A stretch of DNA of 33,498 nucleotides from an uncultured Eubacteriales bacterium (GTDB lineage: Bacteria > Bacillota > Clostridia > Peptostreptococcales > Anaerovoracaceae), in the NCBI GenBank assembly GCA_900315125.1, contig OMXT01000094.1, positions 1-33,498 on the forward strand, in the 5' to 3' direction. The notes under the pieces are model-generated. The model was given only the letters and a program-made list of their open reading frames with translations, ran no database searches and had not been told where the DNA came from. The translations under genes were made by a program, and so were the position numbers. Below are positions 2,110 to 20,374 of the stretch, in pieces; position 1 is the first letter of the stretch; the number at the start of each line of letters is the position of its first letter.

Positions 2110-2177
2110 GTTAGTTAATCCGAACAAGCAATAAATCACAGAATAGAAATCAGCAGAAAGGCAGTTGATACGCAGCT

Positions 2178-3668
2178 ATGAGAGTCGCAGATAATATGAT
2201 AGAACTGGTGGGTCGGACGCCTATGGTCCGGCTGAGCCGGAAAACCAACCCCTATGACGCAGAAATTTTCCTGAAGCTGGAATACTACAACTCCATGTCC
2301 TCGATCAAGGACCGTGTAGGCATCGCCATGCTGGAGGATGCGGAGCGGCGGGGCGTGATCAAGCCGGGGGCCACGATCATCGAGCCCACCAGCGGTAATA
2401 CGGGCATCGGCCTTGCCTTTGCCTGCGCGATCAAGGGATATCACCTGATCCTGACCATGCCGGAGACCATGAGTATAGAGCGGCGCATGATCCTCAGTGC
2501 CCTGGGCGCTGAGATCGTCCTGACAGAAGCTTATTCCAACATGGTGGGCTCCGTTAAGAAAGCGAAGGAGCTGAATCGGGAGATCCCCGGTTCCTGGATT
2601 CCGGATCAGTTTTCCAACCCGGCAAACGCTCAGGCCCATCGGGATACGACCGGTCCGGAGATCTGGGAGGACACGGATGGAACGGTGGATATCTTCGTGG
2701 CGGGCGTAGGGACCGGGGGCACCCTGACAGGCGTCGGCGAGGTCCTGAAAAAGAAAAAGCCCGAGGTAAAGGTCGTCGCCGTGGAGCCCTTCAAATCCGC
2801 AGTCCTTTCCGGGGGCAAAGCCTATCCTCACCGGATCCAGGGCATCGGCGCCGGGTTCATTCCCGACGTAATGAATATGGGCATCGTGGATGACATCCTT
2901 ACGGTGATCGACGAGGACGCCAGCAAATATGCTCACCTGCTGGCAGAAAACGACGGGATCCTCTGCGGCATTTCCGGCGCGGCCAATGTCTGGGCTGCGG
3001 TAGAACTGGCGAAACGCCCGGAAAATAAAGGAAAGACCATCGTCACCGTCCTTCCGGACAGCGGCGAACGCTACCTTTCCACCTGGCTGTACGAGGATTT
3101 TGCCAAGAACGCGGATAAGAACGAGAGCCGTCTGAACAACGAGATCCTGAACACACTGGACGAGAACCTTCCGAAATCCGTGGCTCTTTCCGTCAGATAT
3201 TTTCAAAACGGTCTTTACTGCAGCGAGGCGATCCTCCGGGCTTTCAATGAGGTCTATGAACTGGGATTTCCGGAAGATCAGTATAAGGTCTCTACCCCCT
3301 TCGGATCCGGCCTGGGTGAATCCGGATGCTCCTGCGGCGCCGTTACCGGCGGCGTCATGGTCCTTGGGCTTGTCTGCGGCAGGACCCATAACTATGAATC
3401 GGAGCGTGTCTCCTTCACGGCAGTGAACGAGCTTCACGACCGGTTCCGCAAGGCCCACAAAGCCCTGTGCTGCCGGATCCTGACGAAGGATGTGGAGTGG
3501 AATTCCGCCGAGCACAAGCTTCGCTGCGAGAAACTGGTGCAGGATGCGGCGGAGATCACGGAGGATATCATCCAGCGGGAGCTGAAGGAATACCTTCCGG
3601 CCAGCGGCGGCAAACAGCTGGAGGAGAAGAAGAAGTACATCAACAATCCGAAGAAGATCCGGATCTGA
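2178..3668 (+). CDS. Cysteine synthase fused to a C-terminal C_GCAxxG_C_C redox domain
   Basis: The chain has 496 residues. Residues 1 to about 310 form a complete O-acetylserine sulfhydrylase-type fold: PLP lysine K44 in SSIKDRVG, the substrate loop TSGNTG (71-76), the phosphate loop GVGTGGT (176-182) and the C-terminal SGERY. After a charged linker, residues 335-470 are a C_GCAxxG_C_C family domain (PF09719 type) with C348, the CGAVTGG motif at C386, C400, C431/C432 and C450. Stand-alone CysK is about 310 residues, so the extra 185 residues are a true fusion. The family role is cysteine formation from an activated serine and sulfide; I infer that the redox domain delivers sulfur or reducing power. 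The RBS is weak (GAAAGG), but the N-terminus matches CysK. A second, unfused cysK lies at 14.0-14.9 kb. Confidence 0.88.
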   Translation: MRVADNMIELVGRTPMVRLSRKTNPYDAEIFLKLEYYNSMSSIKDRVGIAMLEDAERRGVIKPGATIIEPTSGNTGIGLAFACAIKGYHLILTMPETMSIERRMILSALGAEIVLTEAYSNMVGSVKKAKELNREIPGSWIPDQFSNPANAQAHRDTTGPEIWEDTDGTVDIFVAGVGTGGTLTGVGEVLKKKKPEVKVVAVEPFKSAVLSGGKAYPHRIQGIGAGFIPDVMNMGIVDDILTVIDEDASKYAHLLAENDGILCGISGAANVWAAVELAKRPENKGKTIVTVLPDSGERYLSTWLYEDFAKNADKNESRLNNEILNTLDENLPKSVALSVRYFQNGLYCSEAILRAFNEVYELGFPEDQYKVSTPFGSGLGESGCSCGAVTGGVMVLGLVCGRTHNYESERVSFTAVNELHDRFRKAHKALCCRILTKDVEWNSAEHKLRCEKLVQDAAEITEDIIQRELKEYLPASGGKQLEEKKKYINNPKKIRI

Positions 3669-3688
3669 TGCATACAGGAAGACTGATC

Positions 3689-4729
3689 ATGAGCGATCTC
3701 GAAAAACTGAAAGAATACACAGAGCGACAGTTCTTCCGGGATGCCCTGGGTGTCCCGGAAGGGGCTCAGGTCGAACTGAAAGACCTGGCTCAGGGGGAAT
3801 ATCACAGGAATTTCCTGATTTCTTTTCCCACTAAGTACGGAAACGGCAGCGCAGCGCCTGTCCCTGACAGGAAACTTGTGCTCCGGGTGAATTACGGCAG
3901 TCAGATGCATCTTCTCCATCAGATCGAGTACGAATATCAGGCTCTGAAGGCGCTGGAACCTTCCGGAAGAACGCCCCGTCCGGTCTTTGTTGACGGAAGC
4001 AGAAAATACTTTCCCCAGGGAATCCTGGTGATGGGATTTCTGCCGGGCAGACCGCTGGATTACGACCGGGACATGGCGGAGGCGGCAAAGGCGCTCGCGG
4101 ACATACACAGCACCCCGGTTCCTGACCCTTCTTTTCTTGTGACCGGCGAGTCGCCGATCCACGACATTCTGGACGAATGCCGTGATATGTTCGCCGTGTA
4201 TGAGGCTTCCGAATTATGTGATCCCCGAACGGCAGCCCGCATCCGGCCCATGATGGTACTTGCCCGCCGAAAAGCCGACAGCCTGACGGACCGGAGCTGG
4301 CAGCGCGTACTCATCAATACGGAGCTCAATAATCATAATTTTATCGTGGACGAGTCCGGAGACGTATCCGTGATCGACTGGGAGAAGCCGCTCTGGGGCG
4401 ACCCTGCCCAGGATCTGGGACACATGCTGGCGCCTACGACGACATACTGGAAGACCGATAAGATTCTGACTTTTGAAGAGGCGGCGCAGTTTGCAGACCA
4501 GTATGCGGAAGCCGCCGGCAGCAGGATCCGTCTCGGGCGATTCCTGGAGAGGCTTCGGACGTTCCTCCAGGTCACATGCATGCGGGGCGTCACCTGGTGC
4601 TCCATGGCATGGGTGGAATACAACCGGCCGGGCCGCGAACTGCGGAATGAATATACGTATAAGAAGCTGAAATCATATCTTTCACCGGATTTTCTCGATG
4701 CCCTGGAAGATTACATGCGCAGCGAATAA
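3689..4729 (+). CDS. APH-fold small-molecule phosphotransferase, variant catalytic loop
   Basis: The 346-residue protein resembles aminoglycoside phosphotransferase/choline kinase-like enzymes. The C-terminal lobe shows the expected order: a catalytic loop at NTELNNHN (210-217), then VSVIDWEKPLWGD with the metal Asp D230, then QDLGHML. The usual HxDxxxxN loop is altered: His is replaced by N210 and the catalytic Asp by E212, while N217 is kept. ATG 3689 is preferred because AGGAAG lies eight bases upstream; an ATG at 3668 overlaps the previous stop (TGATG) and is an alternative. The gene sits in an operon behind the cysteine synthase fusion. The substrate is unknown; by fold and context candidates include thiamine, methylthioribose or an amino alcohol. 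Antibiotic resistance is not implied. Confidence 0.75.
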   Translation: MSDLEKLKEYTERQFFRDALGVPEGAQVELKDLAQGEYHRNFLISFPTKYGNGSAAPVPDRKLVLRVNYGSQMHLLHQIEYEYQALKALEPSGRTPRPVFVDGSRKYFPQGILVMGFLPGRPLDYDRDMAEAAKALADIHSTPVPDPSFLVTGESPIHDILDECRDMFAVYEASELCDPRTAARIRPMMVLARRKADSLTDRSWQRVLINTELNNHNFIVDESGDVSVIDWEKPLWGDPAQDLGHMLAPTTTYWKTDKILTFEEAAQFADQYAEAAGSRIRLGRFLERLRTFLQVTCMRGVTWCSMAWVEYNRPGRELRNEYTYKKLKSYLSPDFLDALEDYMRSE

Positions 4730-4793
4730 ACTGCACATAAAAAGACAGCAAGTTATTATTCAATATATATATAGAGAAAGTGAGGCTTACATT

Positions 4794-5249
4794 ATGGCAG
4801 ACATTCAGGTAAAGAAAGAGCTGGAACAGCTGGCGGCGGATTCCTTCGCAGACGGACTCCACTGCTCCCAGGTAACATTCGGTTATGCTGCGAAGAAGCT
4901 GGGGTTTGATGAAGAAACCGCCCGCAAGATTGGCGCGGCCTTCGGAGGCGGCATGTTCAACGGCGAGCGCTGCGGCGCGCTGGCCGGCGCAATGATGGGG
5001 CTTTCCCTGGCCTACGGCCATTATTCTAAGGAAACCAAGTCTAATGAAGCGAAACTGACGGAGAAGCGGGTGGAACTGGAGAAGAAGTTCAAGGATGCCT
5101 TCGGCTCCTACTACTGCGCGGATATCATCGGCGCCAATATCGGAACGGAAGAAGGCCGCAAGCGGTTTGTGGAAGAGAATCTGGCAAAAGACTGCCCTGC
5201 CCTGACCGGCTACGTATGTCAGCTTCTGGACGAACTTCTGGACGACTGA
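4794..5249 (+). CDS. C_GCAxxG_C_C family redox protein
   Basis: The 151-residue protein is a stand-alone member of the family fused to cysteine synthase at 2178. It has C24 (LHCSQ), the signature RCGALAGA with C60, then C108 (YYCAD), C134 and C142. It is probably a cytoplasmic helical redox or metal-binding protein; no enzyme activity is established for the family that I can state. The start at 4794 is preceded by GTGAGG at a suitable distance; an in-frame ATG upstream at 4698 lies inside the previous gene. Its stop overlaps the next gene's ATG (TGATG), which implies translational coupling. The repeated order redox protein then phosphotransferase suggests the two act on one pathway. Confidence 0.82.
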   Translation: MADIQVKKELEQLAADSFADGLHCSQVTFGYAAKKLGFDEETARKIGAAFGGGMFNGERCGALAGAMMGLSLAYGHYSKETKSNEAKLTEKRVELEKKFKDAFGSYYCADIIGANIGTEEGRKRFVEENLAKDCPALTGYVCQLLDELLDD

Positions 5250-6085
5250 TGCGGACAGCCATGGCAGCCCTCAGCAGTCGGACGAATCTAATAACAAAGA
5301 CCGGACCTGCCGATGCTCCCGTCATCCGCAAGACATACCGCGAGCAGCTCATATCGTATGACGAACGCTGGCCTCTGTCCCGCCGGTATGCGGAAGAATC
5401 CGCATACCGGCTTTTGGCTGCGGTCATCCGGGAGCATTTCCCGGACACCCTGGCTGTTCCCCAAATTCTAGACTTTCCCGCAGCTTCAGGCGCATCCGCC
5501 GATGAAGCAGTACTCCTCCTGGAATATATCGACGCGCCTTCCCTTCTGGAACTGCTGACCGACCCGGGCGCATCACCGGACAGCCTGCCCTCCCGCAAGA
5601 TCCTGCAGGATCTCTTCTCAATGCTCTTTATGATACAGCGGATTCCATATGAATCCCTTTCCCTTGAATTCCAGCGTCTCCTGACCGATCAGCAGCCTAT
5701 CGCCGAATGCATGTACCGGAACAAATGCAGCGGCCAGCCGCCAGTGCTGACCCATGCTCCCTGGTATCTCTGCCTCGGCGACGTCAGTCTGAATAATCTG
5801 CTGTATGACGGCAGACGCATCTGGCTCCTGGATCACGAATGCGTTCACATGGGTTACTTTGGCTACGATGCCGGCCAGCTCCTGGGAATGACGAAGAGCC
5901 TCTGTGAAACCGCATCCAGTTCTGACCCAGCCTGCTGCCTTCAGCAGTTCCTGAGCATGATGATCCAGGCTTCCGCAAATGTATTCAGCGAGAGCGGACC
6001 CCGGAACGCTCTCCGCACCTGGACCGAGCGTTTCCGAGCATACTACGCCGGTCTTGACGGTTCTCCCCTTGTGTGCTACGATTGA
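5249..6085 (+). CDS. APH-fold phosphotransferase, second copy
   Basis: The 278-residue protein is distantly similar to the phosphotransferase at 3689. The kinase-like core is recognisable: LLEYIDAPSLLELL (hinge), CLGDVSLNNLL with catalytic D178 and N183, and IWLLDHE with metal D195, then YDAGQLLG. The His of HxD is Leu/Gly here, but unlike the 3689 protein the catalytic Asp is present. The ATG at 5249 overlaps the preceding stop (TGATG); ATG at 5261 is an alternative. No RBS is seen in front of it, so coupling to the upstream gene is likely. The gene is followed by an intrinsic terminator that ends the operon before thiC. The substrate is unknown. Confidence 0.72.
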   Translation: MRTAMAALSSRTNLITKTGPADAPVIRKTYREQLISYDERWPLSRRYAEESAYRLLAAVIREHFPDTLAVPQILDFPAASGASADEAVLLLEYIDAPSLLELLTDPGASPDSLPSRKILQDLFSMLFMIQRIPYESLSLEFQRLLTDQQPIAECMYRNKCSGQPPVLTHAPWYLCLGDVSLNNLLYDGRRIWLLDHECVHMGYFGYDAGQLLGMTKSLCETASSSDPACCLQQFLSMMIQASANVFSESGPRNALRTWTERFRAYYAGLDGSPLVCYD

Positions 6086-12893: not shown

Positions 12894-13442
12894 TCACAGC
12901 CATTCAACATTTCCGGTTTCTATATCATATACCGCACCGACGGTCTTCATCTCCGACAGCTCCGGATGCTCCCGAAAAGCCGTCTGTATCAGCGTTACAT
13001 TTCTCCGGACGTTCATTGCGCTTGCCTTCCGGTCGTCCCTTTCATTTCCGATGGCTTTCCGGATCTCATCGGTTATGCTGGCAATATATCCTTCCGTCTC
13101 CCCGCTGATTGCCGCTCCCACAGCGCCGCAGCGGGTATGACCCAGCACGACGGTCAGAGGGCAGTGCAGATGAGCCGCTGCGTATTCCACGCTGCCCAGC
13201 TGATGATTATCCATTACATTTCCCGCTACCCTTATCACAAAGAGTTCTCCGATCCCCGCCGAAAATATGGCCTCTGGTATCACACGGGAATCGGAGCACG
13301 CGATAATAATGGCATAAGGTTCCTGCCCTTCCGCCGCGGTACTTTTTCGAATCTGCCGTGAGATATCACCAGGATTTACACCCGATGTGATATAGCGTTC
13401 GTTGCCTTCCTTTAATTTTCTCAAACTTTCTTCCGCGTTCAT
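12894..13442 (-). CDS. Beta-class carbonic anhydrase
   Basis: The 182-residue protein interconverts CO2 and bicarbonate in the cytoplasm. The zinc ligands and catalytic dyad of the beta class are present: C49, D51 and R53 in CSDSR, and H102 and C105 in GHTRCGAVGAA, with the intervening VIRVAGNVMD. The length is typical of small clostridial beta-CAs. The ATG at 13442 follows a clear AGGAGG. It is the last gene of a cysK, shikimate-kinase-like, carbonic anhydrase run with gaps of 23 to 47 bases, so it is probably co-transcribed. I see no metabolic reason for the grouping. Confidence 0.92.
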   Translation of the reverse strand: MNAEESLRKLKEGNERYITSGVNPGDISRQIRKSTAAEGQEPYAIIIACSDSRVIPEAIFSAGIGELFVIRVAGNVMDNHQLGSVEYAAAHLHCPLTVVLGHTRCGAVGAAISGETEGYIASITDEIRKAIGNERDDRKASAMNVRRNVTLIQTAFREHPELSEMKTVGAVYDIETGNVEWL

Positions 13443-13465
13443 TGATGCTGCCTCCTGGTCTCCAA

Positions 13466-13972
13466 TTATTCTGCTTTTCTCAGTTCTTCCTTCGTCCTCC
13501 GCAGCGTCTCCTCTATGCCGAGCCCCGCTTCGTCCACGATGACATCCGCATATTTCTCGTACAGCAGGGAACGCTCCCGGAAAATATCCCCCAGGGTCTG
13601 CCCTTCTTTCAGGACCACGCCCCGGTCGTGGAGATCGCTGAGCCGCTTCTGAAGGCGGCTGTAGGGCAGCCGGAGATACACCACTGTGCTGATCTCCCTG
13701 AGGTGAGCCATGGCTTTGTCCCCGTAAACAACGCTTCCGCCGGTAGCTATGACGGACCGTTCTGCCTGGATCGAAGCGTTCACTTCTTCCTCTATCCGGA
13801 GAAAACCATTGATGCCTGATGTCTCAATGATCTCATGGAGCAGCATGTGCTCCCGGTTCTGGATCAGCAGGTCGGAATCAATGAATGAATAGCCCAGCTC
13901 CTTTGCCAGGATGACGCCCATGGTGCTCTTACCGACGCCGGGCATGCCGATCAGCGTAACATTTGTTTTCAT
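13466..13972 (-). CDS. Shikimate kinase-like P-loop kinase
   Basis: The 168-residue protein resembles shikimate kinase (AroK), which phosphorylates shikimate with ATP in aromatic amino acid synthesis. It shows Walker A GMPGVGKST (9-17), the D32-S-D34 pair, R59 in FLRIEEE, the glycine pair of ATGGSVVYG (78-79) and a lid segment HDRGVVL in place of the usual R-P-L. The changed lid and the absence of other aro genes leave room for a different small-molecule substrate. The ATG at 13972 follows AAGGGAAAA. It lies between cysK and carbonic anhydrase in the same orientation. Family assignment is good; substrate moderate. Confidence 0.75.
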   Translation of the reverse strand: MKTNVTLIGMPGVGKSTMGVILAKELGYSFIDSDLLIQNREHMLLHEIIETSGINGFLRIEEEVNASIQAERSVIATGGSVVYGDKAMAHLREISTVVYLRLPYSRLQKRLSDLHDRGVVLKEGQTLGDIFRERSLLYEKYADVIVDEAGLGIEETLRRTKEELRKAE

Positions 13973-14019
13973 AGGATTTTCCCTTTCCCGCCTCTCCGCA
14001 AAATCCCTTTTTGATTCTG

Positions 14020-14931
14020 TCAGTCCTCCTGGACCAGGGGCGTACTGAAATAACGCTCCATCCGATCCGGCAGAACGGTAACGATTGTCTTGTCCTTCCC
14101 GTATTTCTCCGCCATCTTCATGGCTGCGTAAATATTCGCTCCCGAGGATATACCTACAAGGAGTCCCTGGACCGCAGCAAGAGAGCGTGCGGTTATGATC
14201 GCATCCTCATTGGTCACCTCTATAATATCGGTGATGCATTCCGGTTTCAGGACCCGGGGAATAAAGCCGTCGCCGATGCCCTGGATCTCATGGTGCCCCG
14301 GCACCTGGCCCAGCAGCGCAGAGACCCCCGCCGGCTCTGCCGCGCAGATCCTGCAGTCCGGGTTCTTTTCCAGGAAATAGTCCGCCAGCCCCTGCAGCGT
14401 CCCGCCGCTGCCCACGCCGGAAACAACGATGTCTACTTTCTGTCCAAGCTGCCGGTCGATTTCCGCGGCCGTGCTCTGGTAATGGGTCTCAGGGTTCGCG
14501 GGATTTTCAAACTGCTGTGGAATAAAGTACTTGTCGGACGATGATGCGATTCGGTTCGCCTCCTCCACAGAACCGGCGATGCTCAGCTCTGCGGGCGTCA
14601 GGACAAGCTCCGCTCCCAGGAACCGGATAATGCTCTTGCGTTCCTCGCTCATATTCTCCGGCATAACGATGATCACGTGATAACCCCTGCGCACGCCCAC
14701 GAAGGCCAGACCGATACCTGTATTCCCGCTGGTAGGCTCTATGATCGTCATACCCTTTTTCAGCCTGCCCTCTTTCTCTGCCGCCTCGATCATATGCAGA
14801 GCGATCCGATCCTTGATGCTGCCCCCGGGATTCAGAAATTCCGCCTTTGCGAAGACCCTTGCCCCCAGGGAATCCTCCAGGGAGATCAAAGGCGTATTTC
14901 CTATTACATCGATCACATTTGTCACGTACAT
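14020..14931 (-). CDS. cysK: Cysteine synthase (O-acetylserine sulfhydrylase)
   Basis: The 303-residue PLP enzyme forms cysteine from O-acetylserine and sulfide in the cytoplasm. It has NVIDVIGNTPLISLE, the PLP lysine in GGSIKDRIAL, PTSGNTGIGLAF, the phosphate loop GVGSGGTLQG and the C-terminal PDRMERYFST. It is normal length, unlike the fused copy at 2178, to which it is clearly homologous. The ATG at 14931 has an AAAGAGAG upstream. No serine acetyltransferase (cysE) is adjacent. A good promoter (-10 at 15014-15019) drives it divergently from the nitrogenase-like operon. It could instead use O-phosphoserine or another activated serine; the sequence does not settle this. Confidence 0.9.
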   Translation of the reverse strand: MYVTNVIDVIGNTPLISLEDSLGARVFAKAEFLNPGGSIKDRIALHMIEAAEKEGRLKKGMTIIEPTSGNTGIGLAFVGVRRGYHVIIVMPENMSEERKSIIRFLGAELVLTPAELSIAGSVEEANRIASSSDKYFIPQQFENPANPETHYQSTAAEIDRQLGQKVDIVVSGVGSGGTLQGLADYFLEKNPDCRICAAEPAGVSALLGQVPGHHEIQGIGDGFIPRVLKPECITDIIEVTNEDAIITARSLAAVQGLLVGISSGANIYAAMKMAEKYGKDKTIVTVLPDRMERYFSTPLVQED

Positions 14932-15013
14932 AAACTATCTCTCTTTCTATGAAAATTCATGCTGAGCATGTTGATTTGTTTTATTATCCAGTCCCGCAGG
15001 ACCCGCAAAGAGA

Positions 15014-15043
15014 ATTATACATGCTTTTGAATACCAATGTAAA
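15014..15043 (-). promoter_or_regulatory. Promoter of the cysK operon
   Basis: On the minus strand TTTACA (15043-15038), an 18-base spacer and TATAAT (15019-15014) stand about 80 bases upstream of the cysK start. Only 30 bases, AT-rich, separate its -35 from that of the divergent nitrogenase-like operon, so the two could share regulation. Confidence 0.65.
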
Positions 15044-15073
15044 CACCGCATTTCATTATATTTCAATATCTGT

Positions 15074-15102
15074 TTGCCCGAAAGCCTTCCCGGCACTATA
15101 AT
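15074..15102 (+). promoter_or_regulatory. Promoter of the nitrogenase-like operon
   Basis: TTGCCC (15074-15079), a 17-base spacer and a perfect TATAAT (15097-15102) stand about 87 bases before the ATG at 15189. A GGGAGG RBS follows at 15177-15182. Confidence 0.65.
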
Positions 15103-15188
15103 TGTATTGTATGTATATCCATTCACGGGGAACAAAGGCATGTTCTTCCGTAATCAACGCATAAACCGGCGCAGACGGGAGGCTGCCG

Positions 15189-17450
15189 ATGAACGATAAA
15201 AACAAGCTGGAAATCGCCGTCTACGGGAAAGGCGGCATTGGAAAATCAACGATCAGCGCCAATCTCTCGGCGGCGCTGCAGCTTTCCGGCCGCCGCGTGC
15301 TGCAAATCGGCTGTGATCCCAAGCACGATTCTACCCGCTACCTCATGCACGGAGAGCGGATCCCCACGGTGCTGGAGCTGATGAGGACAGGCGACTCCGC
15401 AGGGGGAGCTGCATCGGCGCCAGGACAGGCGGGAGACGGACAGGACTTTCTCTGCGTCAGCAGTCTGGGAGTCGGCTGCGTGGAAGCTGGCGGACCCCGG
15501 CCCGGCGTGGGATGCGCGGGCAGAGGCATTATCTCTGCCTTTGAGTATCTGAAGAAAAATCACGCGAAGGATCCCTATGACATAGTCGTTTACGATGTTC
15601 TGGGCGATGTGGTCTGCGGCGGATTCGCCGTGCCCGTCCGGCGGGAATATGCGGACGCCGTCTTCGTTGTCACCAGCGGGGAATACATGGCTTTGTACGT
15701 GGCCAATAACATCCTGCGGGGCATACGCAATTACGACGGCGAGACGGGAGCACGGGTCGCCGGCATTATATATAACGAACGGAAAGTGGCGAACGAGGAC
15801 GAGCGGGTCCGCCGCTTCGCCCGCGCCGTGGGACTGCCCATCGCAGCGAAGATACCGAGAAGTACAGCCTTCGCCATTGCAGAGGAGCAGAACCGGACCG
15901 TCATGGAAATGCCGGCGGAGGGATCAGCCGCTGCTGAGACGGAGCTGATCCAGTCGCTGTTCCGGGAGCTGGCCGGGAGCGTCAATGACGGTCTGTCACT
16001 CTATCCTGCCTGTCCTCTTTCCGACGAGGCACTGGAACAGGCGGTACTGGGCGGCGGTCCGACTGCTGTTCTATCCGCGCCTGCATCCTTGAGCATGGAG
16101 ACGGGTGCTCCCAATCACAGCGCTGCACCGGAGCATGCTCCCGATGACACCCGTGAATCACTGCCTTCCTGTCCTCCCCTCTATGGCTGCGCATTCAATG
16201 GAGCCGCCACTGCAGCGGTGCGGCTGACAGACGCGGTGGTCATCGCCCACTCTCCCCGGGCCTGCGCATTTTACACATGGCAGAACATCAGCTCGCCGGG
16301 CAGAAAGAATCTCTTCAACCGGGGCGTCCTCATGCCTTCCGCCATCAGTCCGAACTTTATCTCTACAGAAATGGGACAGGACGATGTAGTCTTCGGTGGC
16401 ATGGACCGTCTCCGGCAGGCTGTGCGTAATGCACAGGCAGAAAGACCCGGAGCGGTCATTGTCATCAGTTCCTGCGTCAGCGGCATTATCGGCGATGATA
16501 TTCACGGCCTGGAAGAGATGTCCACGCCGGAAACCCCTGTGATCGTCATTGCGACCGACGGAGATATCGCCGGGGACTACATGGAAGGACAGCGGATGCT
16601 GATGCACACTCTGGCCTCTAAATTTTTCAGACGCGGCGGCAAACCCCAGCCCGGCGCGAAACTCGTCAATATCATCGGTGAGACCGGAATGTCCAATAAC
16701 AGCGAGCAAAACTTCCGGGTCATGGAAGGACTCCTGGCGAAGCTTGGGATCCGTGTGGGATGCCGTTTCCTCGGCGATGCGACTATCCATGAAATGCAGC
16801 ATTTTACTGACGCGCCCCTGAATCTGCTGGCCGATGACCTGCCCTCCGGTCATGAACTGGCAGGATGGCTGAAAGAACAATACGGCATTACCGTTCTGGA
16901 CCAAGCCTTTCCTGTCGGCTTTTCTGATACCGAGTCATGGCTCACTGAGGTCGCGAACTTCTTTCACTGCAGTGAACTTGTGGAACCCCTCGCAGAAGCG
17001 GAACGGCTGCGGTTCCAAAGAGAAATCGAGGCGCTCCGGCCCCGGCTCTCAGGGAAGAAAATTCTCTTTACCGTCATCAACATCCACATGGACTGGCTGT
17101 TCCAGGCGGCGAAAGCTGCGGGCATTCACATCGCCTGGGTCGGTGTGCTGAATTATCTTCACCAGGATATTCTTGTCACGGATGACCCAGAGATCCAGAG
17201 CGTGACCGAAGAAAGTCTCTCCCGCGACACCGTTATTCAGAAAATCCGGGAAACATCACCGGATCTGGTGGTAACCGATTATACATTCGCAGAGGAACCG
17301 GACTGCCTCATCGATACACTGCCCATGACGCCTACGGTGGGTTTCCACTCGGGAGTACGCATTCTTGAGCGGTGGGCGGACCTGTTCGAAGCGCCGGAGG
17401 AAGGAGGCTGGAAGAATGACAAGAGAATGTTCGAAAAATATTATGCCTGA
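15189..17450 (+). CDS. Nitrogenase-like fusion protein: NifH-type iron protein joined to a NifD-like subunit
   Basis: The 753-residue chain carries two proteins that are normally separate. Residues 1 to about 265 are a complete NifH/BchL-type ATPase: Walker [10 protein letters not shown] (13-21), [10 protein letters not shown] (41-50), [13 protein letters not shown] with cluster Cys C109, and [12 protein letters not shown] with cluster Cys C143. A linker rich in Ala, Pro and Ser (about 285-325) follows. Residues 325-753 are NifD/NifE-like: C328 (SCPPLYGC), C359 (SPRACAFY) and C429 ([11 protein letters not shown]) occupy the three P-cluster-type positions, and [13 protein letters not shown] carries C525. 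In the family the iron protein passes ATP-driven electrons to the D/K partner. No FeMo-cofactor genes are nearby, so N2 fixation is unlikely; the substrate is unknown. It overlaps the NifK-like gene by 35 bases. Confidence 0.9.
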
Positions 17451-18798
17451 CAGCATCACCGGTATGGTCTTTGCCCTCGAAGGCGTGCGAAATGCCGTTG
17501 TGCTTTTGAACGGACCCATGGGCTGCAAATTCTACCACAGCACCACGTCCCAGTTTCTTTCCATCCGTCCGGTCCTCTTTATGAACGACGAAAAGAGCGG
17601 GCAGCGAGTCCCCGTGGACTACAACTACCTGAACGATTATTTCTTCCGTCAGCCCCGGGTCCCTTCCACCTATCTGGACGGGTACGATTATGTGTATGGA
17701 ACGGCGGATAAAGTACGGCAGGCTCTGCAGTTTATCCGCAGCAATCTCCACGTGGAACTTGCGGGGGTGATCAATTCCCCCGGCGCCTCTCTCATCGGTG
17801 ATAATCTGAAAGAAATTATAGCCGAGGAACTGCCGGATCTGCCGGTCGTCATGATAGAATCCCCGGGATTTTCAGAAGACTTCTCATCTGGATATAGCCG
17901 GGCAGCCCTGGAACTGCTGAAACAGCCGGGATTTCTGACACGGAGTGAACCGGCGGATCCCCGGGTCACAGAAAACGCAAACGGACCTGCCGTCAATCTC
18001 CTGGGGCTCTCCCTCTGGCACCGCTATGCAGAAGGAGACCGGGAAGAGCTCAAACGGATCCTTGCCGAGGCCGGAATCCATGTGAACTGCTGTCTCTGTT
18101 CTGACTGCACTGTGTCTGAGATCCGGCGCATCACGGATGCGCAGCTGAACGTGGTCATCTATCCGGAAGCAGGACTTGCCCAGGCAGAATACCTGAAGGA
18201 AACGTTCGGTATGGACTTTGTTGTCCTCCCCGAGATCCCCGTGGGCTTCGATGCAGCAGAACAGCTGATGAGAGCAATCGTCGATGCGCTGAATGACGCG
18301 TATGGCACTGCCGCGAACAGGCTCGCCGCGTTCCGGGAAGACGCGGAAAAGGCCCGGGCCCTCGCCTGGTACCGAATCAACGACATCAACCTCATGTACG
18401 GCCTGCCCCGGGGCGTCCGATTCGCCGTGACCGGCGACGGTTCCATCTGCCTGGCCTACAGCCGTTTTTTCATGGAATACCTGGGCATGATTCCTGATGC
18501 TATAGAGGTGAACGGCATATCAACGCCTGAGGCAGACCGGGCGCTGCAGGCCCTTGTAAGGCGATTCCACGCAGAGGGTTCTCTTAAGAAACGGGCAGTG
18601 GACTCCCAGGCTGAGCTGGTATTCTCCGACGCCAACACTATCGCGGAGCTGATGCTGAAAAACCGCAGTTTCTGCGGCATAGAGATCAGCCTGCCCGGCA
18701 TGGGCTATACGGACATTATTCCAAAAACTCATCTCGGTGTGAAGGGCGCCCTGTTCCTGATCGAACAGGTACTGAACGGACTGATGTCGAGACTGTAA
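17416..18798 (+). CDS. NifK-like nitrogenase component 1 subunit
   Basis: The 460-residue protein begins with P-cluster-type cysteines C5 and C37 (the latter in [13 protein letters not shown]), as in NifK-like subunits of nitrogenase-like reductases. The third position, where NifK has Cys, is replaced in [13 protein letters not shown] second unusual feature is a dense motif C225-C226-x-C228-x2-C231 aligned to the GDA-T region of the D-like partner. It probably pairs with the D-like half of the upstream fusion to form the catalytic component. ATG 17416 is chosen because AAGGAGG is eight bases upstream; the start lies inside the preceding gene, implying coupled translation. The stop codon is embedded in the terminator. 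The reaction is unknown. Confidence 0.85.
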
Positions 18799-18848: not shown

Positions 18849-19256
18849 TCATGGCAGCTGCCTGAGAATGCCTCCATATCTTGCGGCAATAGCGCACTGC
18901 AGCCTTTGAAATTCAGGAATATACGCGTTTATGATTCGAATGACCAAAGCATCCGCGTCATCTCCGTTGTAGATATGTGCGGAACGATTCCTCTGGTCCA
19001 GCATTTCCAGCCAGACGTCCTGATTCAGAAAATCGTAATAAGCGTATGCGGTTTTTATCACAGTCCTCGGCGAACCTGTATCAGCGGCAGAGGCACCCTC
19101 ATACTGGAGAAGTTCCTTCAGCACCTTCCAGGCAAGTTCAAACTGAAGTGAAAACTTGTCAATGATACCGCTCTTGATGAAATCATTCGAAAGATCCTGT
19201 CTATCCGCCTGACTGAGGACCTTCAGCTGATGCTTGTAGTTATCCCATTTCTGCAT
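18849..19256 (-). CDS. HepT-like HEPN toxin (HI0074 nucleotidyltransferase-partner family)
   Basis: The 135-residue helical protein belongs to the HEPN family paired with minimal nucleotidyltransferases. The toxin motif RX4HXY is intact: R89, H94 and Y96 in RNRSAHIY. In the characterised HepT/MntA system HepT is an RNase silenced by MntA-catalysed AMPylation of that Tyr. The segment FSLQFELAWKVLKELLQYEG is typical of the HI0074 subgroup. Its start overlaps the end of the mntA-like gene by 17 bases, so the pair is translated together, antitoxin first. An intact catalytic motif suggests it is active; its RNA target is unknown. Confidence 0.88.
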   Translation of the reverse strand: MQKWDNYKHQLKVLSQADRQDLSNDFIKSGIIDKFSLQFELAWKVLKELLQYEGASAADTGSPRTVIKTAYAYYDFLNQDVWLEMLDQRNRSAHIYNGDDADALVIRIINAYIPEFQRLQCAIAARYGGILRQLP

Positions 19257-19533
19257 ATATTTCCACGCCCTCTCTCCGAATATTTTCCCTCAGTTCATCA
19301 GAAATATACGGCTGATCCATATCGACCAGGTCAAACTTCAGCAAAGTCCAGACTTCCTCTTCCACCGCACAGGAAAACTCGCCGAAGTCGCTGCATCCCC
19401 ATACAGCCAGGTCAATATCGCTCTTCGGCCGATTGGTGCCCCTTGCCCGGGATCCAAATAAAACGATCCGCCGGACATGATACTTCATTGCCAGACGCCT
19501 AAGATCCTGCTGCACTCTTGCGGGAAGCGCCAT
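19240..19533 (-). CDS. MntA-like minimal nucleotidyltransferase (antitoxin)
   Basis: The 97-residue protein has the minimal nucleotidyltransferase signature GSX10DXD (GSRARGTNRPKSDID), followed by the third acidic strand FDLVDMD. In the known HepT/MntA type, this protein AMPylates and neutralises the HEPN partner encoded immediately downstream. The start at 19533 is preferred because GGGAGA lies close upstream. An in-frame ATG at 19545 is also possible, but its GGGGAGG is only two bases away. Either start overlaps or abuts the stop of the pyridoxal kinase gene, so all three genes look co-transcribed. Confidence 0.87.
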   Translation of the reverse strand: MALPARVQQDLRRLAMKYHVRRIVLFGSRARGTNRPKSDIDLAVWGCSDFGEFSCAVEEEVWTLLKFDLVDMDQPYISDELRENIRREGVEIYAEMG

Positions 19534-19534
19534 T

Positions 19535-20374
19535 TTATCTCCCATTGCCTCCCCTTTCTATCAGATCCAGACAGCTTTCCAGGGGGATCCCCTTATACTT
19601 ATCCGCGTTATCTGCATTGCAGCGGATCATCTCGCTTACGGTATCCATTGCGGCTTTCGTCGATTCACAAAGCCCTGACCCGCCCAGGACCCGGCCCAGG
19701 AGCACTGCAGAAAATATATCTCCCGTTCCGGGGAAACGGATAGGGATCTCCTGAAAACCGATCTTAAAATACTGCTTTCCTTTGTGGTCATATCCCATGA
19801 CGCATTTTCCCTGTTCGCCGGCGACCTGGCAGCTCGTGATCACAACAGAATGCGCTCCCAGTTCCAGCAGCCGGTCGATCACATCCCGCAGTTCCTCCTC
19901 CGATGCTCCATCTGCCCGGTACTCTGCGCCAGACAGACAGACCGCTTCCGTGTAATTCGGGACACAGCAGTCGGAAACGGAGATCAGGTTCCTCATGTGG
20001 CTCACGGTGTCCTCTGTGACCCCATTATACAGCTGTCCTTCATCGCCCATGATGGGATCCGTGAAGATCAGAGTCCCGCTTTCCGCCTTTTTCTGGCAAA
20101 ACTCCGCAATGATGCGCGCCTGCTCCTCAGAAACGATGAATCCCGTAGAAACCGCGTCGAAGTCAAAGCCCAGTTCATCCCAGATCCCGATGGTCCTCTT
20201 CATATAGTCCGTTGTCTCCAGGATATCAAATTTACCGTAATCCAGCGTGTTGGAAACAACCGCCGTAGGAAGGTTGAACAGCTCATAGCCCATGTGGGAA
20301 AGCACGGGGATCATCGCTGAAAACGCTACCTTGCCGTATCCCGGCATATCATTGATCAGCAGTATTTTACTCAT
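19535..20374 (-). CDS. Pyridoxal/pyridoxine kinase (PdxK/PdxY type)
   Basis: The 279-residue ribokinase-fold enzyme phosphorylates pyridoxal-type vitamers with ATP to feed PLP synthesis. It has INDMPGYGKVA at the N-terminus, TDPIMGD (106-111), VPNYTEA (138-144) and the catalytic anion hole GTGD (216-219, base D219). The length is typical. The ATG at 20374 follows GGAGAG; in-frame codons further upstream lack an RBS. Both cysteine synthases in the window need PLP, but that is a loose link. The 3' end overlaps the toxin-antitoxin pair. Confidence 0.87.
   Translation of the reverse strand: MSKILLINDMPGYGKVAFSAMIPVLSHMGYELFNLPTAVVSNTLDYGKFDILETTDYMKRTIGIWDELGFDFDAVSTGFIVSEEQARIIAEFCQKKAESGTLIFTDPIMGDEGQLYNGVTEDTVSHMRNLISVSDCCVPNYTEAVCLSGAEYRADGASEEELRDVIDRLLELGAHSVVITSCQVAGEQGKCVMGYDHKGKQYFKIGFQEIPIRFPGTGDIFSAVLLGRVLGGSGLCESTKAAMDTVSEMIRCNADNADKYKGIPLESCLDLIERGGNGR

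Follow-up and report, generated by a model that had tools for sequence, protein, structure and literature searches.

Here, we describe a two-gene nitrogenase-like system encoded on the forward strand of contig OMXT01000094.1 from an uncultured Eubacteriales bacterium of the Anaerovoracaceae (assembly GCA_900315125.1); the 33,498 nucleotides analyzed are referred to as the window. The first gene (15189–17450) encodes a NifH-type Fe-protein ATPase fused to a NifD/NifE-type subunit (domains H and D; together HD), and the second (17416–18798) encodes a NifK/NifN-type subunit (K). We regard it as an even chance that HD and K constitute a distinct nitrogenase-like family that functions as an ATP-driven corrinoid reductase. 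Because some relatives of the fusion reside in vitamin B12 salvage operons, a corrinoid is the probable substrate, rather than N2. The fusions fall into two subclades, A (window-type) and B: a corrinoid substrate is well favored for subclade B and favored with less assurance for the window's own protein, and cobalt as the site of reduction has an even chance at best.

The fusion gene is a single stop-free frame of 753 amino acids, with Pfam matches to Fer4_NifH at residues 8–284 (15210–16040; E = 8.9e-86) and to Oxidored_nitro at residues 334–732 (16188–17384; E = 7.9e-65), in agreement with a first-pass annotation that had described one chain with a complete NifH-type ATPase and a D-like half. 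The Walker A motif of H (GKGGIGKS) and its cluster cysteines, C109 (15513–15515) and C143 (15615–15617), show no variation across six aligned sequences. A linker that varies in length and is poorly conserved (residues 285 to about 330; 16041–16178) leads to D, where the bridging-cluster cysteines are C334 (16188–16190), C359 (16263–16265), and C429 (16473–16475); the latter two had been named previously, and C334 replaces the C328 initially assigned as the first of the three. The K gene encodes 460 amino acids with an Oxidored_nitro domain (E = 1.5e-45) and a single bridging-cluster cysteine, C37 (17524–17526). Its best start is the ATG at 17416, with GGAGG just upstream, and it overlaps the 3' end of the fusion gene by 35 bases (17416–17450), as first annotated; this overlap likely reflects translational coupling. 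D and K were both modeled well by AlphaFold (pLDDT 88 and 87, respectively).

A scan of named genomes returned 322 relatives, 80 of which were kept as named loci (L numbers). H and D occupy one open reading frame (ORF) at 71 of the 80 (65 plus six more); at L070, the contig ends within the D part of the fusion. Among the nine loci without an intact fusion, L085, L105, L112, and L128 begin at a contig edge, and the frames of L059, L106, L125, L129, and L131 are split or broken. Given the 71 single-ORF loci, and with neither stop nor frameshift between the H and D parts in the window, the fusion is not an assembly artefact; it is an old, conserved family. Hosts of the kept relatives include Clostridia, Coriobacteria, other Actinomycetes, Spirochaetes, Chloroflexi, and Methanosarcina. 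Within the window's taxonomic family, the fusion occurs in at least seven of 197 genomes (the window's own included, and one split over two contigs), and broader sampling shows it to be uncommon, with counts of 5 among 398 genomes of the phylum, 3 of 225, and 1 of 394, each including the genome searched from. The HD/K overlap measures 35, 32, or 38 bases at 47 of the 60 loci measured, with K starts assigned by one fixed rule of the analysis. The stretch between the end of the H profile and the first D cysteine spans 42–122 residues (median 54; 65 fusions), a length with which an H dimer may dock in the usual way, so the altered docking geometry proposed in the first-pass annotation need not apply. 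Clustering of all genes at the loci identified no gene family other than K near most fusions. A plasmid search with the fusion returned 215 records, every one below 60% identity; among the 20 matches listed (29% or less), 18 are labeled NifE, one is a bifunctional NifE-type protein, and one is unannotated. A phage search with the fusion gave no match.

The three bridging-cluster columns of D are Cys in 71/71 fusions; in K, one column is Cys (66/66), and the other two are Asp (65/66) and Pro (66/66). The first-pass proposal of a P-cluster-type cysteine set therefore does not hold in full, and with only one of three K cysteines retained, a [4Fe-4S] relay is expected. The column equivalent to the cysteine that binds the iron–molybdenum cofactor (FeMo-co) in NifD (C275) is Cys in 0/71 fusions; the column of the FeMo-co histidine (NifD H442 equivalent) was not located, because the motif sought was absent from the NifD reference used. 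A 3+1 ligand set carries one bridging [4Fe-4S] cluster, and a cofactor-free cavity binds a large substrate directly, such as protochlorophyllide in DPOR. Judged by alignment columns, D and K are expected to form a 3+1 [4Fe-4S] relay of this kind and, like tetrapyrrole reductases, to lack a cofactor of the FeMo-co type. BchY/BchZ and NifE/NifN have the same 3+1 cysteine pattern in the column table as fusion D/K. COR (BchXYZ) and DPOR (BchLNB) resemble the window's pair in combining an H-type ATPase with two Oxidored_nitro subunits and in carrying three cysteines on one subunit; the conserved K cysteine column is Cys in BchZ and Asp in BchB. The active site of COR and DPOR lacks a large FeS cofactor (PMC12552129), a feature probably shared by the fusion.

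The fusion is placed outside the characterized families tested by scores and trees. None of the NCBIfam cut-offs for nitrogenase-type families is reached among the best 25 of 37 families listed for the fusion. H matches CfbC best (284 bits vs. a curated cut-off of 402), followed by BchL (193 vs. 345) and BchX (187 vs. 331); D scores 54 vs. 420 for BchN; and K scores 91 vs. 490 for BchB and 32 vs. 529 for BchZ. The CfbD model reaches 35 bits vs. 268. COR and DPOR thus differ from the window's pair in scores as well as in their separate Fe protein, and no chlorophyll gene was seen near the fusion. CfbCD is likewise nitrogenase-like and acts on a tetrapyrrole, but CfbD is a single D-type subunit, and the trees put Cfb apart. 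In the H tree, all 25 fusions used form a single clade with modest support (82/69), apart from NifH, CfbC, BchL, and Mar-like rows and with BchX weakly beside it. The 12 fusions used for D form one clade (100/100), to which NifD, NifE, and Mar-like D are weakly adjacent (70/95), and the same number for K form one clade (100/100) that is unplaced among the other subunits. Bch rows form clades separate from fusion D and K, but they are long branches from one organism, and the rows for hyp-linked loci and DK pairs are long branches as well. The phylogeny called for by the first-pass annotation accordingly separates the H, D, and K parts from the rows of Nif, Mar-like, Bch, and Cfb sequences, with the modest support noted in the case of H, and its suggestion of an undescribed ATP-driven reductase stands to the extent that this is a superfamily ATPase-reductase outside the characterized families tested, its reaction uncharacterized; the fusion architecture itself is already in print.

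A nitrogenase, a methylthio-alkane reductase (Mar), or a NifEN-like cofactor scaffold would be suggested by similarity alone. D is nearest in sequence to NifE and NifD; its best PDB chain by sequence profile is NifE (155 bits), and the nearest solved folds of the D model are NifD, MarD, and NifE; for K, the best sequence match is MarK (9d9u_C, 134 bits), followed by BchB (105 bits), although the nearest solved fold of the K model is BchB of DPOR. The P-cluster of Mar has six cysteines and its cofactor is of the [Fe8S9C] type (PMC12552129), unlike the fusion pair, with four cysteines and no cofactor cysteine. Fusion D and K do not group with Mar-like D and K rows (separate 100/100 clades), these rows being the loci L051 and L052, named by their neighbors rather than from characterized enzymes. 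Compared with Mo-nitrogenase NifHDK and NifEN, the system differs in its fused H, in lacking the FeMo-co/L-cluster cysteine, and in its genomic setting: the first-pass annotation reported no nifB nearby, and a nifB profile search of the window's genome extends this genome-wide (best match 28 bits vs. a cut-off of 344). As the genome is rated 98% complete, the absence of nifB is probable, not certain. Nitrogen fixation, Mar-type C–S cleavage, and a scaffold function were each rejected on the cysteines, the lack of a nifB match, and the trees, and all three are extremely improbable.

The gene neighborhoods of subclade B point to corrinoids. A corrinoid signal, defined as a cobalamin riboswitch or corrinoid gene within 6 kb, is present at 15 of 49 subclade B loci (L044, L062, L063, L068, L073, L075, L082, L083, L090, L092, L095, L097, L101, L182, and L185), and the neighbors include BtuFCD-like, CobU/T/S, CbiZ, and CobN proteins, adenosyltransferases, and cobalamin riboswitches. 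At seven of the 49 loci, a riboswitch (Rfam RF00174) lies upstream on the same strand within 6 kb. In L062 (Peptococcaceae), it is 166 bases upstream of the fusion; in L083 (Ca. Formimonas warabiya), it is 269 bases upstream, in the order CobA/BtuR–riboswitch–HD–K, at a locus that also encodes CbiQ and a DUF4430 protein; and in L092 (Treponema), it is 3.7 kb upstream. A TIM barrel protein separates riboswitch and HD in L068 (Sporobacter), and a Dph6-like protein does so in L044. L185 has the order riboswitch–CbiQ-like (by phmmer only)–ABC ATPase–S-layer protein–DUF4430–HD–K, with a riboswitch score of 34.6 bits that barely exceeds the cut-off of 31.5; the seventh such locus is L182. Divergent riboswitches lie 131 (L063) and 133 (L075) bases away, and L097 has a DUF4430 protein near the fusion. 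A Dph6-like ATP pyrophosphatase is encoded directly 5' of the fusion at three loci (L044, 8606–9265; L049, 7964–8623; L097, 5400–6068).

Other subclade B operons place the pair among genes of corrinoid import, salvage, remodeling, cobalt insertion, and adenosylation. L090 (Spirochaetaceae) has the order PduO-type adenosyltransferase–BtuF-like–FecCD–ABC ATPase–HD–K–CobU–AP_endonuc_2–CobT; L095, and partly L092, resemble this operon, with CobS downstream in L092. L101 (Chloroflexi) has CobN–CbiZ–AP_endonuc_2–HD–K, and L073 has CobN–CobN–ChlI/D-type ATPase–HD–K. A CobA/BtuR gene also lies near L059, a locus outside the 49 in which the H and D frames are split. As subclade B pairs adjoin CobN, import genes, and adenosyltransferases, they stand at sites where a cobalt reductase is needed.

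In the mechanism we propose, two H domains would pair via a shared [4Fe-4S] cluster, receive electrons from ferredoxin or flavodoxin, bind ATP, and dock at the D–K interface. Electrons of very low potential would then travel via the bridging [4Fe-4S] cluster to a corrinoid held in the cavity equivalent to the FeMo-co site of nitrogenase or the protochlorophyllide site of DPOR. The likeliest reaction would be reduction of Co(III) or Co(II) to Co(I), with loss of the upper ligands, ahead of adenosylation by CobA or PduO. The enzyme would thus act between import or cobalt insertion and adenosylation, the role that CobR has in aerobes, and CobR is similar in this proposed place; it is an unrelated protein that does not use ATP. 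CobO-type adenosyltransferases need Co(I), and in aerobes Co(II) is reduced to Co(I) by CobR, which differs from the fusion in being a flavoenzyme, after CobN and before CobO (PMC7242693). A parallel for ATP-driven reduction of a tetrapyrrole metal is the ATP-driven activation of F430 (PMC12176620). At L070, the gene for a 1077-amino acid protein (2129–5365) extends four bases into the start of the fusion; the protein combines 2Fe-2S, pyridine-nucleotide oxidoreductase, and [FeFe]-hydrogenase domains and is a possible electron donor.

The significance of the riboswitch context depends on its background. Same-strand riboswitches within 2 kb occur at 4 of 71 loci, vs. 0.15 expected (Poisson P = 1.8e-5; 0.001 and 0.007 at three and five times the riboswitch density, respectively), where the loci are partly related (L066 is a second copy of L046) and the background, at least 249 riboswitches in 109.6 Mb of 39 genomes (covering 40 of the 80 named loci), is a lower bound because scoring was limited to 49 candidates per genome. 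This bound weighs against a corrinoid function, as do the following points. Thirty-four of the 49 subclade B loci have no corrinoid signal; Rfam identified no riboswitch in 10 of 14 loci of one set, including L090 and L095, nor in L073; and the Methanosarcina loci gave no corrinoid match in the stretches examined. The related loci L044/L045/L049, L090/L092/L095, and L132/L133 are not independent. For those of the 15 that were counted by genes, there is no background control, and the gene queries were drawn from the subclade B loci themselves, so that the count favors B. Two AP_endonuc_2 neighbors tested gave no NCBIfam match, leaving their identity as CbiR unsupported, and the L090 protein scores under the Pfam cut-off; CbiR, a cobamide-remodeling enzyme, belongs to the AP endonuclease 2 superfamily (PMC7733943).

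The count itself was shaped by several choices. The corrinoid signal emerged only on operon-by-operon reading, with the neighbors to be annotated chosen by the analyst. The corrinoid count excludes S-layer and prenyltransferase-like neighbors, the Dph6-like protein, a small Cys-rich domain, and DUF3786, and the duplicates L066, L085, L047, and L048 were dropped from the locus count together with loci outside the fusion family. The riboswitch model R1 was built from 12 riboswitches in these loci, for which its search is therefore not independent; the positions counted were confirmed with Rfam, which was run on 25 of the 72 loci counted, the remainder being searched with R1 only. L182 was added after a partial riboswitch showed at its edge, and L185 was added without such a sign.

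The chemistry of the superfamily also counts against cobalt reduction: the target of DPOR, COR, and CfbCD is the macrocycle and not the metal, and CobR-type reductases work without such machinery. Because all three enzymes act on the macrocycle, ring reduction is the main rival. A corrin-ring reductase would reduce double bonds of the macrocycle, either repairing oxidized imported corrinoids or making an undescribed reduced corrinoid. It would suit the 3+1 cluster ligands shared with COR, the missing cofactor cysteine, the closeness of the K fold to BchB, and the CobN chelatases at two loci. A reduced corrin ring, however, is not expected to serve the usual B12 enzymes, and the neighbors are salvage and adenosylation genes, which require Co(I), not ring changes; we consider ring reduction unlikely. 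If true, it would represent a fourth tetrapyrrole branch of the superfamily, beside those for chlorophyll, bacteriochlorophyll, and F430, with the iron protein tethered.

The enzyme might instead reactivate corrinoid enzymes by reducing protein-bound Co(II) oxidized during turnover, as an analogue of the RACE-type activators, which are ATP-dependent. Several fusion hosts are known to be acetogens, methylotrophs, or methanogens, which was counted in favor of this possibility, and ATP-driven corrinoid activation can be set beside ATP-driven F430 activation (PMC12176620). The corrinoid neighbors, however, are import, salvage, and remodeling genes, and the neighbors annotated (part of all neighbors) include no identified methyltransferase or dehalogenase of the corrinoid type, so a reactivator appears quite improbable.

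Reduction of a corrinoid by the window's own protein is a more tentative proposal, and the comparison of subclades counts against it. A corrinoid signal within 6 kb is found at 0 of 23 subclade A loci vs. 15 of 49 in subclade B (Fisher P = 0.0016); the contrast is weaker for riboswitches alone (0/23 vs. 11/49, P = 0.013) and for those upstream on the same strand (0/23 vs. 7/49, P = 0.09), and Rfam identified no riboswitch in the window. The split was made by a threshold on the D score against the window sequence, with L068 moved to B by hand. Six fusions of high D score that were missed by the gene caller (L110, L115, L117–L119, and L121) are outside the 23; an R1 riboswitch search of these gave a best match in L118 (E = 0.077), which was not counted. 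Elsewhere in the window's genome (L187), a cobalamin riboswitch is followed by an 871-amino acid protein and then a BtuFCD-type transporter. DUF3786 proteins are encoded beside the fusion at L135 (5824–6429) and L100 (7080–7733), one locus from each subclade, and DUF3786 is the sole neighbor query that matches in both.

With subclade A lacking corrinoid neighbors, the function of the window's protein is argued from conserved residues. Where a column reaches 90% conservation or more in each subclade, the residue is identical between the two in 100/100 cases for H, 58/59 for D, and 60/61 for K. Among the differences are a conserved switch from P to V at D residue 430, beside a cluster ligand, and a K insertion near residue 67. 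Subclade A may have switched to a different substrate, such as a tetrapyrrole of another kind or some unrelated small molecule; the absent corrinoid signal and both of these differences speak for such a change, but so few conserved columns differ (none in H and one each in D and K) that we regard it as distinctly unlikely, and prefer a corrinoid substrate for the window's protein as well.

The fused architecture, which the first-pass annotation took to be undescribed, has been in print since 2012. Dos Santos et al. (2012) mentioned, as "data not shown," fused nifH/nifE-like genes with nifN-like genes in Archaea, Firmicutes, and Deltaproteobacteria (PMC3464626), fused nifH/nifE in archaea has been listed (PMC4153887), and a NifH–NifD/E fusion in archaea has been noted (PMC11237513). 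The 2012 genes have the same architecture as the window's pair, and we infer that they belong to its family; the parts of that paper examined give no function, neighborhood, or riboswitch for the fused form. Separate NflD and NflH genes beside a cobyrinate diamide synthase gene have since been assigned to F430 synthesis. It was to such a separate pair that the 2012 remark on cobalamin reduction referred (PMC3464626). A search of the open-access literature identified no link of such a nitrogenase-like enzyme to cobalamin riboswitches or corrinoid salvage, and no corrinoid substrate reported for superfamily members in the literature surveyed. The fusion itself is therefore known, and its corrinoid and riboswitch context is new here.

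The window's genome (2.3 Mb) encodes two further nitrogenase-like loci: H, D, and K on contig C69 and a D–K pair on contig C70. In the former (L042, G000:C69, 4361–13594), H, D, and K are preceded by a radical SAM gene and followed by genes for HypF, HypD, and a HypE-like AIRS protein, all in line. There is no match to a NiFe-hydrogenase large subunit in this genome, and the Hyp proteins may thus serve the nitrogenase-like enzyme; NifHEN-like genes beside hydrogenase maturation genes were noted by Dos Santos et al. (2012; PMC3464626). For the D–K pair (L043, G000:C70, 1717–4327), no H gene was found on the contig. Within the window, a nucleotidyltransferase-substrate-binding gene and a small nucleotidyltransferase gene, a pair presumably of the type known from toxin–antitoxin systems, lie just downstream of K on the opposite strand (18849–19545). 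Two genes of the PALP family (Pfam; cysteine-synthase-like by our reading) are present (2178–3668 and 14020–14931), the first fused to a C_GCAxxG_C_C domain, putatively redox-active. A sulfur metabolism reading based on these two genes was set aside: the gene nearer to the fusion lies on the other strand, and few fusions have a member of its cluster nearby. At L044, a 727-amino acid protein that combines S-layer domains with a ubiquitin domain (Pfam, 99 bits) is encoded just 3' of the fusion operon (13176–15359) in a bacterial genome, and could represent contamination or a real acquisition.

The corrinoid-reductase proposal provides a testable function for an architecture that was noted in 2012 without one. 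If it is correct, anaerobes spend ATP via nitrogenase-type chemistry to bring B12-type cofactors to their reactive state, in parallel to the ATP-driven activation of F430 in methanogens, and this would be relevant to the exchange of cobamides within gut, rumen, and termite communities. In addition, the natural tether between H and D could be used to examine whether every catalytic cycle requires the Fe protein to dissociate.

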